Shown here one piece after another: positions 13,204-35,617 of a DNA stretch of 42,296 bases. The translations under genes were made by a program, and so were the position numbers. Every line of letters begins with the position of its first letter. Position 1 is the stretch's first letter. This DNA is from Victivallales bacterium (GTDB lineage: Bacteria > Verrucomicrobiota > Lentisphaeria > Oligosphaerales > Oligosphaeraceae). The DNA lies in assembly GCA_017535315.1 (NCBI GenBank), contig JAFXUD010000018.1, forward strand, positions 1-42,296, written 5' to 3'. The notes beneath the pieces were generated by a model. That model searched no databases and was not told where the DNA came from. It saw only the letters and a list, made by a program, of their open reading frames with translations.

Positions 13204-15600
13204 ATGAGAGAAAATATGATGCAAGAAAATCCTTTGATACCAATGGCGGCGGTGACGGGGCGGCCAAGCCGCGAGTTTATCCGCAATTTCATGGGGGAAT
13301 ACCGCCGTGTGGGCATCACGCAGTTCTTGTTATACCCGCGTTCAGGCTGCGAGTTGGATTATCTCTCCGATGAGTGGTTCACGATGGTTCAGAATGTCAT
13401 CGACGCGGCGGAGGAACTTGGCTTTACCTCGTTGTGGCTCTATGACGAGTTCAATTGGCCCAGCGGACAGGGGGGCGGGCGCGTGATGGCCGAAAGCCCC
13501 GACTTTATGCTGCATTATCTTCAGGCAAAGCGAGATGAAAATACGGGAGAAGTCGCCTTCACAGTCCAGCGCATGGAGAAGTATCCCAATCTTCTGAATC
13601 CCGCATCTGTGGAGTTCTTCCTCAAGACCACCCATGAGGAGTATGCCAGACGTTTCGGAAAGCATTTTGGCACACTCATCAAGGGTATCTTCACGGATGA
13701 ACCCTCGTTTGGATACTACTGGGGCCACAACGAATTTGACCAGCCCGATGAAGTGCATTTGCCATGGTACCCCGAACTAGAGCAGGAGTACCACGACTGC
13801 ACAGGACGCGAACTCCGCGATGACCTCCGAGCACACTTTGACGGCACGGCACGTAATGGCTTCCGAGAGGTATGTGAAGCGCTGGTCGGCAAGCGCTTCC
13901 GCACGACATTCTTTGACCGTATTCGCAGCTGGTGTGATGCACACGACATTCTCCTGACTGGTCATCTGATGGGAGAACACGGTGCTCAGGCCCCGCGTTA
14001 CAATGGTGATACACTGTTGGCAAACGCTGGATTCTCCTTGCCTGGAATGGATGAGATTCATACGGGAGTCAGAGGTTTTGACGTGGAGTGGCAGACCTTC
14101 GGAACCGTCCAGTACGGTGCGCATCAACGCGGCAATGGCGCACTCGCAGAGCTCTTCGCGCTGGGGCCCTCAACGCTGTCGCCTGCCTACTACCGCCAGA
14201 TGATCTGGCTGACGGCGCTCTTTGGCGTGGACCACTACCTGCTGGCGGTCGCGCAGTTCGGCTCCGAGGGTAATGTCCACAAGCCAACCTGGTACAACCC
14301 AACTTCGCCTGCGCAGACCTGGTTCGACCATTTCGAACAACTGGGCGAGGATGCACGAAAAGCAGCGCAGTTTGCCCACCGTGAGCTGCGTCCTGATATC
14401 GAAATCCGCTATGCAAACCACTCGCCTTTGCAGGTGGCGCTCCTGAGGCAACTGGTCCACGAACAGCGTCCATGGCGTTTCCTGCGGGCGGACGATGCGT
14501 CATCGCCAGAGGCATTCGTGGTGCTGGAGACCCTTCCAAATGGCACGCTGCGGGACGAAAAGAGTGGAATTGAGTTTGCCGATGCCGATACGTTGATAAA
14601 CTGGTTGCGTAAGCATTGCAGCCAGCGTGTACGCGTCTTCTCGCACGGTAATATCTTGGCGGAGGATGTGTTGGTGCAGAACTATATGGATGGGACAAGC
14701 GTAGTGCTGGACTTGCGCGACCCTATCGAAACTGCCAGAAGGCTTCTTCTGCGTTTGGACGATGAAACAACGAGCCGTCCCTTTGTGCTGGAGGCCGCTG
14801 GCGTGGCGGTGATTAATCGTGCAAGTTTTGATTCGGATACCTCTGCCCTGATGGGGAGCCATCCGCGAAATGCGATGGCGGGAAAATGGCGCCTTGTCGG
14901 CGTTGACCGCCCGATGCTCCTTTGCCCTGAGTACGATGCGCAAAACAGTGTGCGGCTGGAAGTGGCACCTGGAGTCAGACCAGTTCGGGTGCTGCTTCGG
15001 CAATATGGCATGCCAGCAACCGTTCGGCTGGATGGTCAGGAAGTATTGGCGGAGGAACCCTGCGCCACTTTGCCGCATGGCTTCAACCACCTCTATCGCT
15101 CCAGCACCATTATAAATCTGGAGCCCACGGTGCATTGTCTTGAATTGTCTGGAACGGTCAAAGACTATCCATTCATGCCAAGCGTCTTTTTGGAGGGCGA
15201 GTTTGCAGTGTACTGCGATGCACCAGGCATGATGAAGATAACTCCTCTGCCGCATGAGGTTCAAGATGGTGATTTGACCACGCAGGGATTGCGCAATTAT
15301 GCAGGAAAGGTTACTCTGGAACAGACAGTGGTAGTGCCATTGGATGCGGAGTGGTTGTGTCTGGACACGGGTGCAAACTGCGTTGCCGTTACACTGGACG
15401 GGCGCGACCTCGGCTTGCGTTGCTGGGCACCCTTCGCATGGACGGTTCCTGCTGAAGTGCGTGGAAGGACGGTTGTGTTGTCTGTCACGCTGGAGTCCCC
15501 TGTAGGATGGCTCTTCGGACGCGAACGACTGGATGGGAAGGCCTGGCAGTCACCCCGCGACATCCTGCCCCCTGGACTATACTGCGTTGAGTGGGCGTAA
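13204..15600 (+). CDS. GH106-like glycoside hydrolase (putative alpha-L-rhamnosidase or related)
   Basis: The 798-residue protein shows a TIM-barrel N-terminal half with LWLYDEFNWPSGQGGGRV (residues 77-94; D81, E82) and GIFTDEPSFG (161-170; D165, E166), the pattern of GH106 and related large rhamnosidase-like enzymes. A galactose-binding-like beta domain occupies roughly 600-798 (LDGQEVLAEEP, LDTGANCVAVTLDGRDLG). There is no signal peptide, so hydrolysis of imported oligosaccharides in the cytoplasm is likely (inference). It is a little shorter than classical GH106 enzymes. Two in-frame ATGs exist (13204 and 13219); GAGAG before the second gives it a weak ribosome-binding site, so the start is uncertain by five codons. 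It converges on the amidohydrolase gene. The exact sugar specificity is unknown. Confidence 0.7.
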   Translation: MRENMMQENPLIPMAAVTGRPSREFIRNFMGEYRRVGITQFLLYPRSGCELDYLSDEWFTMVQNVIDAAEELGFTSLWLYDEFNWPSGQGGGRVMAESPDFMLHYLQAKRDENTGEVAFTVQRMEKYPNLLNPASVEFFLKTTHEEYARRFGKHFGTLIKGIFTDEPSFGYYWGHNEFDQPDEVHLPWYPELEQEYHDCTGRELRDDLRAHFDGTARNGFREVCEALVGKRFRTTFFDRIRSWCDAHDILLTGHLMGEHGAQAPRYNGDTLLANAGFSLPGMDEIHTGVRGFDVEWQTFGTVQYGAHQRGNGALAELFALGPSTLSPAYYRQMIWLTALFGVDHYLLAVAQFGSEGNVHKPTWYNPTSPAQTWFDHFEQLGEDARKAAQFAHRELRPDIEIRYANHSPLQVALLRQLVHEQRPWRFLRADDASSPEAFVVLETLPNGTLRDEKSGIEFADADTLINWLRKHCSQRVRVFSHGNILAEDVLVQNYMDGTSVVLDLRDPIETARRLLLRLDDETTSRPFVLEAAGVAVINRASFDSDTSALMGSHPRNAMAGKWRLVGVDRPMLLCPEYDAQNSVRLEVAPGVRPVRVLLRQYGMPATVRLDGQEVLAEEPCATLPHGFNHLYRSSTIINLEPTVHCLELSGTVKDYPFMPSVFLEGEFAVYCDAPGMMKITPLPHEVQDGDLTTQGLRNYAGKVTLEQTVVVPLDAEWLCLDTGANCVAVTLDGRDLGLRCWAPFAWTVPAEVRGRTVVLSVTLESPVGWLFGRERLDGKAWQSPRDILPPGLYCVEWA

Positions 15601-15658: not shown

Positions 15659-16423
15659 TTATTTTAATCCCAGCAGTCGTTCTGCGTTGCCGTGAAAGAT
15701 GGCTTCACGGTCAGCTGGTGTGATGTCCTCGTAATCGACGGCGGCGACCTGCATGGCGGCGTTGCAGGTGGGGAAGTCCGTCGCGAAGAGGACGCGGTCG
15801 GCCCCAATCGCCTTGACCGTGTAGGAGAGCATATTGTAGCGGAAAAGACCTGTACCGCAGATGTCCAGGTAGGCGTTGCGATGCTTTTTCATCACTTCCA
15901 GCTTTTGCTGGAGGCTGGCGAACTCGCCTGGATGCGCCATGACGACAGTCAGCTTCGGATAGGCGGCGACGAGCTTCTCCATGTCGGTGAGGTCCATGCT
16001 ATGGATGCTGACAGGCATCTGCATCTTCTCTGCATATTCCCAGACGGGCTGCAGAGAGGGGTGCATATACTCCTTGTAGCCCATGCTATAGGGGACTAGC
16101 TCACCGATGAGTTTCACACCTTCTGCACGCATGCGATCAATCTCCTGGATGGATTCATCGGGAAAACCTGCAAGTACATGCATTCCAGGATAATAGAAAT
16201 CGGGGTGCAAATCCCTGAAACGTAGAGCCTGGTCGTTCATTTCGCGGATGGGGGCGAAATCGGTTCCGTCAATGCGGTGGATGACACTTCCCGCACAGGC
16301 GGTGATGCCAACTTTCTTCAAGTGCGCCACAAATGCTTCTGCACTGGCTGGGGCGGCGTAACTGCCGATGCGGTCTTTCAGGTCGATGAAGGGATGGAGG
16401 TGGAAATCGAAAATCTTGCGCAT
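15659..16423 (-). CDS. Amidohydrolase family (amidohydrolase_2) metal-dependent TIM-barrel hydrolase
   Basis: The 254-residue protein opens with DFHLHPF (H8, H10, the metal-binding HxH), followed by SIHSMD (H141), VMAHPGE (H164) and FATDFPT (D216), the ordered ligands of amidohydrolase_2 enzymes. This group includes sugar-lactone hydrolases and decarboxylases acting in sugar-acid and aromatic catabolism. The neighbouring Gfo/Idh/MocA oxidoreductase favours a lactonase or related role (inference). No Shine-Dalgarno is visible; instead heptamer tandem repeats run directly up to the ATG. The gene lies 60 bases downstream of the oxidoreductase gene on the same strand and converges with the GH106-like gene, with a hairpin between them. 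No signal peptide. Confidence 0.88.
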   Translation of the reverse strand: MRKIFDFHLHPFIDLKDRIGSYAAPASAEAFVAHLKKVGITACAGSVIHRIDGTDFAPIREMNDQALRFRDLHPDFYYPGMHVLAGFPDESIQEIDRMRAEGVKLIGELVPYSMGYKEYMHPSLQPVWEYAEKMQMPVSIHSMDLTDMEKLVAAYPKLTVVMAHPGEFASLQQKLEVMKKHRNAYLDICGTGLFRYNMLSYTVKAIGADRVLFATDFPTCNAAMQVAAVDYEDITPADREAIFHGNAERLLGLK

Positions 16424-16455
16424 AGTGGTTAGTGGCTAGTGGTTAGTGGCTAGTG
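16424..16455 (-). repeat. 7-bp tandem repeats abutting the amidohydrolase start codon
   Basis: On the plus strand TAGTGGTTAGTGGC occurs twice (16423-16436 and 16437-16450) and is followed by TAGTG, so alternating TAGTGGT/TAGTGGC heptamers reach the start codon. Next to them lies GCAATTAGCAATT (16458-16470). They occupy the position where a ribosome-binding site would be expected. Confidence 0.85.
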
Positions 16456-16483
16456 AAGCAATTAGCAATTTGGTGCTAGGGTG

Positions 16484-17797
16484 CTAGGGGGCTTTACGAA
16501 CGATGGGGGGCTGCTGCCCTCGAACCCCCGCCCGAATGATATAAAGCATCCATTCGAGGTTGCGACGTGCCATGGGGGCGGTCATCTCGATCTTTCCCTT
16601 TATATAGCTTCGGATGAGGAGGCGCAGCATGTCTTCGCGATCAACGGAGCCCCAGGGGGTGGAGATGCGCATGTTGAATACGCCTTTTTCGTCCTTGTAG
16701 CCGCCGATGTCGAAGGTGTTGCCGTCGATGGTGATTTGGCGGACATTCTTGGGCTCCTCGTCGCGGTGGAGGGTCAGGATGTCGCAGTGGAGCAGGGAGC
16801 CGTCCCGCCGCTCGCAGTCAAAGAGGGCACGCGCCTGATGTCCCGTGAACTCGGTCTTCAGGGTCTTCCAGTTGATGCGTCCATTGTGGGAGAGTGCCTG
16901 TGCGACGGCCAGCATGTGGGGGGACAAATCCACCCAGGTCCAGTGGGGAACGGGCGGACGATTACGCGTGGGAGACACCAAGGTCCCCTGGAAATGCTCT
17001 GGTTTCTCCAGTTTAGTATGCTTGCTAAAAATGGAGAGGCACTCCTGTTCAGCCATGATGTACTGCGTGCATACACCTAGCATCTTGCGCTTTGCCAACG
17101 CCATCTCCTCCAGTTCCTTGACCTGCGCTAGCATCTGCTCGTGCTCAAGGTTGTCGTCATAGACGAATGGCTTCTCGCACAACACGTTGCAGCCTGCTTC
17201 CAAAGCGGTCTTCGTTGCCTGGTAGTGCAGGGCAGGGGGTAGGCAGACATCGACGATGTCGGGTTGTGTCTCCTCAAGAAGCGCCTGCAAGTCGGTATAG
17301 CCCTTTGGATGAATGCTGAACGAACTGGAAAGCAACTCTGCGGTTGCGGAAACACTTGCGGGAGTGCTTCCCAAGAATGCAACAGGCTGTGCGCCTTCCA
17401 GGTTCCACCAGTTTGCATGGTGGCGGCCAATACCACTTGCACCCAAGATGGCGACTTTGGGACTGGCGGGAAGCGGGGCAGGGGCGTTCTTCAAGGCTTC
17501 TTTGTCCAAGAGGTGCATCCGAAGGTCGGGAAGAACCGATGTGGCCAGCGGCGAGCGGTGGAAACCTATTATTTTCGTACCATGGAAGCCGAAAATCACC
17601 TCAATGTCCGCGCTTGTGAGGCATTGATAGATGGGGCAGGGAAAATCCCGCAGCACGGCATCGCGGCTGTTTCCCGACAAATCTGTCGTGATCAGCAGGA
17701 AGGCAAGCTGTTTGCGTATCTGGTGCAGACGGTCGCGGCCAACCTCCACGACGCGTGACTTGAGCATGAAGGGAGCTAGTTTTTTCAGGGTTTCCAT
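16484..17797 (-). CDS. L7Ae/L30e-like domain fused to a Gfo/Idh/MocA-family oxidoreductase
   Basis: From the ATG at 17797 the protein has 437 residues; a TTG at 17803, overlapping the previous stop, would add two. Residues about 3-95 look like an L7Ae/L30e-type fold: a helix, AFLLITTDLSGNSRDAVL, then CPIYQCLTSADIEVIFG, then TKIIGFHRSPLATSVL. A Pro/Ala linker (about 100-113) leads to a Rossmann domain with VAILGASGIGRHHA near 115-128 and the family motif CEKP near 207-210. The C-terminal half is the usual Gfo/Idh/MocA alpha/beta domain. Such enzymes oxidise or reduce sugars or sugar acids with NAD(P). Their normal length is about 330-390, so the N-terminal ~100 residues are extra. The gene follows the cyclase-like gene immediately and should be co-translated. 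The L7Ae call is by pattern and needs a profile search; the oxidoreductase call is firm. Confidence 0.8.
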   Translation of the reverse strand: METLKKLAPFMLKSRVVEVGRDRLHQIRKQLAFLLITTDLSGNSRDAVLRDFPCPIYQCLTSADIEVIFGFHGTKIIGFHRSPLATSVLPDLRMHLLDKEALKNAPAPLPASPKVAILGASGIGRHHANWWNLEGAQPVAFLGSTPASVSATAELLSSSFSIHPKGYTDLQALLEETQPDIVDVCLPPALHYQATKTALEAGCNVLCEKPFVYDDNLEHEQMLAQVKELEEMALAKRKMLGVCTQYIMAEQECLSIFSKHTKLEKPEHFQGTLVSPTRNRPPVPHWTWVDLSPHMLAVAQALSHNGRINWKTLKTEFTGHQARALFDCERRDGSLLHCDILTLHRDEEPKNVRQITIDGNTFDIGGYKDEKGVFNMRISTPWGSVDREDMLRLLIRSYIKGKIEMTAPMARRNLEWMLYIIRAGVRGQQPPIVRKAP

Positions 17798-35225: not shown

Positions 35226-35590
35226 GGGACGAGAGGGACTGGAGCGACGGGAGCGACGCAAGGGGCTTGTTTTTTTTCATGCCACTTGCGTCGCAATGTG
35301 CATGTTTTTTCATGCCACTTGCGTCGCTCCCGTCGCTCCCGTCGCTCATGTCCCTGTTAAAAAGTGTTCTTAAATTTTGGGGACGGGAGGGACTTGAGGG
35401 ACAGGAGCGACGCAAGGGGCTTGTTTTTTTTCATGCCACTTGCGTCGCTCCCGTCGCTCCCGTCCCTCATGTCCCTGTTAAAAAGTGTTTTTAAATTTTG
35501 GGCACAGGAGCATCGCAAGGTGCATGTTTTTTTTTATGCCACTTGCGTCGCTCCCGTCCCTCCCGTCCCTCATGTCCCTGTAAAAAAGAG
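35226..35590. repeat. Tandem array of three hairpin-forming units between the MATE and phosphate-transporter genes
   Basis: Three related units cover 35226-35380, 35381-35500 and 35501-35590. Each has a purine-rich arm of degenerate GGAGCGACG repeats, a GGGCTTG- or GGTGCATG-type element with a long T tract, CATGCCACTTGCGTCGCTCC, pyrimidine-rich CCGTCGCTCC repeats, and CATGTCCCTGTTAAAAAGTGTT. In unit 1 the arms 35241-35262 and 35318-35339 are perfectly complementary over 22 bp. Unit 1 also contains an extra CATGCCACTTGCGTCGC copy. This fills most of the 434-base gap; no promoter was identified in it. Confidence 0.9.
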
Positions 35591-35617
35591 ATTTTCCCCC
35601 CCAGATATCGCACACAA

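Follow-up and report, generated by a model that had tools for sequence, protein, structure and literature searches.

A gene of a Victivallales bacterium (assembly GCA_017535315.1, contig JAFXUD010000018.1) encodes a protein of 437 residues in which a domain of the L7Ae/L30e fold, resembling the bacterial protein YlxQ, is fused to the N-terminus of a Gfo/Idh/MocA oxidoreductase. It lies on the minus strand at 16484..17797 of the window, the whole stretch of 42,296 nucleotides that was analysed, with its ATG at 17797 and its stop codon at 16484-16486, and all 437 residues are read in a single frame. The N-terminal domain, here called the head, comprises residues 1-98 (17504..17797) as delimited by a structure model, Foldseek and family profiles. 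It is followed by a linker of residues 99-111 (17465..17503), recognised by model confidence, which is low at residues 100-105, and by a substitution rate that was fastest here in one of the pairs tested, and then by the oxidoreductase part at residues 113-437 (16487..17461), assigned by Pfam, conserved catalytic residues and the structure model, the enzyme proper covering about residues 113-425. The source genome encodes many further Gfo/Idh/MocA proteins and only this one carries the head domain. On balance we favour a model in which the basic YlxQ-like head binds RNA and, through the short linker, holds an active NAD(P)-dependent enzyme on it; RNA binding by the head, the tethering and catalysis on a sugar-like substrate are the parts of this model that we infer.

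The first-pass annotation had recognised an L7Ae/L30e-type domain in front of the enzyme from sequence patterns, and structure prediction agreed with this, no unrelated fold being obtained. A profile-based AlphaFold2 model of residues 1-98 (mean pLDDT 94.1) shows a three-layer alpha/beta/alpha fold with the element order helix-strand-helix-strand-helix-strand-helix-strand-helix. The top match to this model in a Foldseek search of the PDB was B. subtilis YlxQ (3v7q; E 1.8e-5, TM 0.80/0.81, 18% identity); next came an integrative YlxQ model, Nhp2, the YlxQ-type protein 3on1 from Bacillus halodurans, eL8, Snu13 and L30e, and the 32 matches at E<=0.001 were L7Ae/L30e-type proteins or ribosome and pre-ribosome chains labelled by entry alone. 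A narrow sequence profile of the head also placed YlxQ first in the PDB, at an insignificant E of 0.2, and with a wide family profile two YlxQ-type structures ranked first (3v7q, E 0.0028; 3on1, E 0.032). The NCBIfam model PRK05583, ‘ribosomal protein L7Ae family’, was matched by 20 of 32 family members (best 1.3e-6) and the YlxQ model PRK07714 by four of them. Since the window's own copy of the head, taken alone, matched nothing in Pfam or NCBIfam, its assignment to the L7Ae/L30e superfamily rests on family profiles and predicted structure. Pfam, PF01248 included, left the head unmatched both alone and in 28 relatives, and at cut-off the Pfam L7Ae model found one of 338 genomes of the phylum and none of 29 of the family. 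As judged by profiles and models, the head is thus an L7Ae-type family that is missed by the standard Pfam model, in a phylum nearly devoid of canonical L7Ae. The family is marked by the signatures G20-R21-x-R/K-L-x-Q and T74-K75-x-x-G78-F79 and is basic, its mean pI being 9.5 and that of the enzyme part 6.2.

The remainder of the protein matches PF01408 (Gfo/Idh/MocA) at residues 114-229 (2.1e-19), residues 1-111 having no Pfam match, and the first-pass assignment of this part is therefore upheld as well. In the full-length model (pLDDT 86.9, pTM 0.73) the two-domain enzyme matches Gfo/Idh/MocA structures, with an N-terminal NAD(P)-binding Rossmann domain, whose nucleotide-binding loop reads GASGIG, and a C-terminal alpha/beta domain with D...H active-site residues. 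The nearest solved structures, GnnA (UDP-GlcNAc 3-dehydrogenase), 1,5-anhydrofructose reductase and scyllo-inositol dehydrogenase, share the fold and the catalytic motif with the enzyme half; they differ from it in sequence, at about 15% identity, within the 12-17% or so seen with any solved member, and in the extra N-terminal domain of the fusion. None of 13 full-length fusions departs from Glu208-Lys209-Pro210 (the EKP motif with the catalytic lysine), Asp290 or His294, and the enzyme half is therefore probably active. The genes next to the enzyme vary among genera and include a cyclase, an amidohydrolase, a xylose-isomerase-like barrel and an FAD amine oxidase. Naming a substrate from these neighbours was therefore rejected, and the evidence suggests a sugar-like substrate and nothing closer.

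Within the same family the head domain is present in 26 of 29 genomes, 17 of which have it joined to a full-length oxidoreductase; MAGs submitted under the names Victivallales, Lentisphaeria or Oligosphaeraceae have the fused layout too. No fewer than nine genera of a single family keep the fusion, and in fused pairs the head showed a dN/dS of about 0.1 and the enzyme one of 0.02-0.13, indicating purifying selection on both halves. A wrong start or another gene-prediction artefact was rejected on the grounds that the fused frame is kept across genomes with a dN/dS of about 0.1 in each half. The layout had been annotated as undescribed, and indeed no L7Ae-oxidoreductase fusion was found in the literature searched, although one may exist elsewhere; it is not a one-off, however, being a conserved family feature with a traceable history. 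In four genomes of neighbouring families, head and enzyme are encoded separately, the stop codon of one gene overlapping the start codon of the next in the sequence ATGA. Stand-alone copies of the head are found elsewhere in the class Lentisphaeria and in 58 of 245 genomes of one Verrucomicrobiae order. Within the family itself, five genomes (G002, G003, G017, G018 and G027) carry the head alone, and at 1e-15 no enzyme was found elsewhere in these assemblies, several of which are incomplete. Homologues of the enzyme with no head domain nearby were seen in MAGs of Brocadiaceae, Nitrospiraceae and Hydrogenedentes (L051-L056). In two further fusions, in G026 and G028, the enzyme half is shortened and EKP has become ETP or KTP, with loss of the catalytic lysine. 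These truncated halves (L027:1081-1914 and L029:1426-2289) have the appearance, by sequence, of enzymes decaying behind a retained RNA-binding-type head.

In a tree rooted with Verrucomicrobiae as the outgroup, the fused members are interspersed with, and nested within, the unfused, and five or more changes of state are required by branches that are well supported. The alignment has about 100 columns, which leaves many forks of this tree unresolved, and change counts alone cannot separate gain from loss. Because some enzyme halves have decayed, at least one lineage must have lost the enzyme, and of the two parts of the fusion the head seems the older and the more persistently kept, originally a stand-alone protein. 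According to the favoured model, the head would descend from a stand-alone protein whose gene in Verrucomicrobiae accompanies that of a DeaD-type RNA helicase, and in Lentisphaeria the head gene would have come to overlap the oxidoreductase gene by ATGA before the two fused. Most likely the head would then hold the enzyme on structured or ribosomal RNA, with each half retaining its own activity. The same history could be read as that of a passive fusion, in which a ribosome- or RNA-associated head and an ordinary soluble sugar or cyclitol dehydrogenase were joined by loss of a stop codon in overlapping genes and remain functionally uncoupled. The ATGA overlap means that a small mutation would be enough to fuse the genes, the enzyme half is dispensable, being absent or decayed in several genomes, and the enzyme's neighbours are varied (cyclase, amidohydrolase, xylose-isomerase-like barrel). 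Retention across so many genera under selection on both halves argues against such uncoupling, which we consider unlikely while giving it more weight than any of the other alternatives discussed here. The possibility that the head is a mere passenger of the enzyme is a point against the RNA-tethering model.

Independent support for the idea that the head has a role with RNA comes chiefly from the gene order around its stand-alone relatives (loci L112, L122, L126, L128 and L129-L163). In 17 of 35 Verrucomicrobiae loci, representing six families, a DeaD-type DEAD-box helicase is encoded directly upstream of the head gene on the same strand. In the four junctions that were read (G393, G526, G463 and G454) the helicase and head genes overlap as TGATG, and both helicases scanned contain a DbpA RNA-binding domain and a DeaD dimerisation domain. 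DEAD-box genes number only a few among the thousands of genes in a bacterial genome, which puts the adjacency far above chance, as judged from general gene numbers and not by simulation, the 35 loci not being independent of one another. The stand-alone YlxQ-like protein is therefore a candidate helicase partner that has apparently gone unrecognised so far. YlxQ proper is a stand-alone gene within the nusA-ylxR-ylxQ-infB operon. The nusA-infB setting was not seen among the neighbours visible in the fetched loci, which were judged by eye; the stand-alone relatives occupy various genomic places or lie behind the DeaD-type helicase. The helicase neighbourhood was seen in Verrucomicrobiae and not in the window's own class, which counts against the model, as does the weak sequence similarity to YlxQ (18% in the structural alignment). 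RNA binding is nonetheless the best reading of a head that is basic, has YlxQ as its predicted closest solved relative and has stand-alone homologues behind a DeaD-type helicase. As the head would be an old stand-alone protein, often encoded with an RNA helicase and only later fused, the fused enzyme probably sits on RNA.

L7Ae proteins recognise the two G.A pairs of the kink turn through Asn33 and Glu34, which begin a helix, and a hydrophobic loop of these proteins caps its loop (PMC5061560). According to PMC9723947, the glycine just in front of this helix is conserved universally, and SBP2 no longer binds when it is mutated. The equivalent Gly20, in the turn before helix 2, is invariant in the head family, where it is followed by R-[D/E/Q]-[R/K]-L-x-Q, such that the positions of archaeal L7Ae Asn33, Glu34 and Lys37 are taken by D/E/Q, R/K and Q and the equivalent of Glu34 is a basic residue. 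With these contacts altered, canonical kink-turn recognition by the head is doubtful, and this replacement of Asn33, Glu34 and Lys37 also counts against the RNA-tethering model in that binding to a kink turn of the known type is not assured. YlxQ is reported to bind kink turns (Baird 2012, cited in PMC9723947). Since YlxQ likewise lacks Asn33 and Glu34, the altered contacts neither prove nor exclude such binding. They would suit a repurposed L7Ae-fold domain that no longer binds RNA and now serves the oxidoreductase as a dimer or ligand-binding module. This seems improbable, as the basic surface is kept, the helicase neighbourhood points to RNA and the domain persists without the enzyme both inside and outside the fused clade; because it persists alone, an enzyme-specific role cannot explain the conserved face of the head.

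The fusion gene is preceded directly by a putative cyclase gene (PF04199; 17800..18477, minus strand) and followed by an amidohydrolase gene (PF04909; 15659..16423, minus strand). Between the latter and the fusion gene lie short tandem repeats, at 16423-16455 (TAGTGGTTAGTGGC, 2.4 copies) and 16472-16493 (GGTGCTAG, 2.8 copies). As only 2 bases separate the cyclase stop codon from the ATG of the fusion, the two genes probably share one transcript and the fusion gene has no leader. This bears on the proposal of the first-pass annotation that the enzyme might sense the metabolic state of its own transcript, taken here to mean that it binds a kink turn within that mRNA and tunes its expression accordingly. 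In favour of this, a role of archaeal L7Ae in translational regulation has been proposed (PMC5539422). In addition to the 2-base gap and the altered contact residues, the window contained no kink-turn-like element upstream of the fusion gene and no Rfam family, and upstream of the gene in 15 relatives four kink-turn-like elements were found against 2.2 expected, which is no excess. A kink turn in the leader was thus rejected for the window, with no enrichment in the relatives, and the own-transcript proposal, which was not borne out, is the least credible of the readings considered.

Enzymes bearing an L30e-type domain are already known. The SPOUT rRNA methyltransferases of the RlmB/AviRb type (COG0566B/C) carry an L30e-like, probably RNA-binding N-terminal domain fused to the enzyme (PMC1829167). 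Those enzymes are methyltransferases that act on rRNA, whereas the partner here is a Gfo/Idh/MocA oxidoreductase, which lacks the knotted SPOUT domain and for which no RNA substrate is known, a partner not found described in the literature searched. The head is moreover closer to YlxQ than to the SPOUT heads, no SPOUT protein being named among the 50 PDB matches listed. YlxQ and YbxF, the B. subtilis homologues of L7Ae, share with the head its fold, its length, its basic character and the invariant glycine at the turn before helix 2, YlxQ being the closest by both structure and profile. YlxQ and the head differ in the kink-turn contact motif, which is GEDLVIK in YlxQ and G-R-x-[RK]-L-x-Q in the head family, and in setting, the head being enzyme-fused here and standing alone behind a DeaD-type helicase in many Verrucomicrobiae. 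The head could also bring the active site to ribosomal or structured RNA for redox chemistry on an RNA-linked sugar or an RNP-held metabolite. Such an RNA-directed oxidoreductase is very unlikely, more so than a repurposed head, and if real it would be the first redox enzyme of the Gfo/Idh/MocA superfamily to act on or at RNA. What is observed is a family tied to an RNA helicase by gene order and a natural series of stand-alone gene, overlapping pair, fusion and decayed enzyme. This series provides a test bed for how RNA-binding modules join metabolic enzymes and allows one to ask whether such enzymes act at RNA.

Elsewhere in the window, on the plus strand at 13204-15600, a protein of 798 residues has no Pfam match at 1e-3 and looks by eye like a large glycoside-hydrolase-like protein. 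Longer tandem repeats are present at the contig end (1-147, an 18-base unit in 8.2 copies) and at 35401-35595 (a 103-base unit in 1.9 copies).
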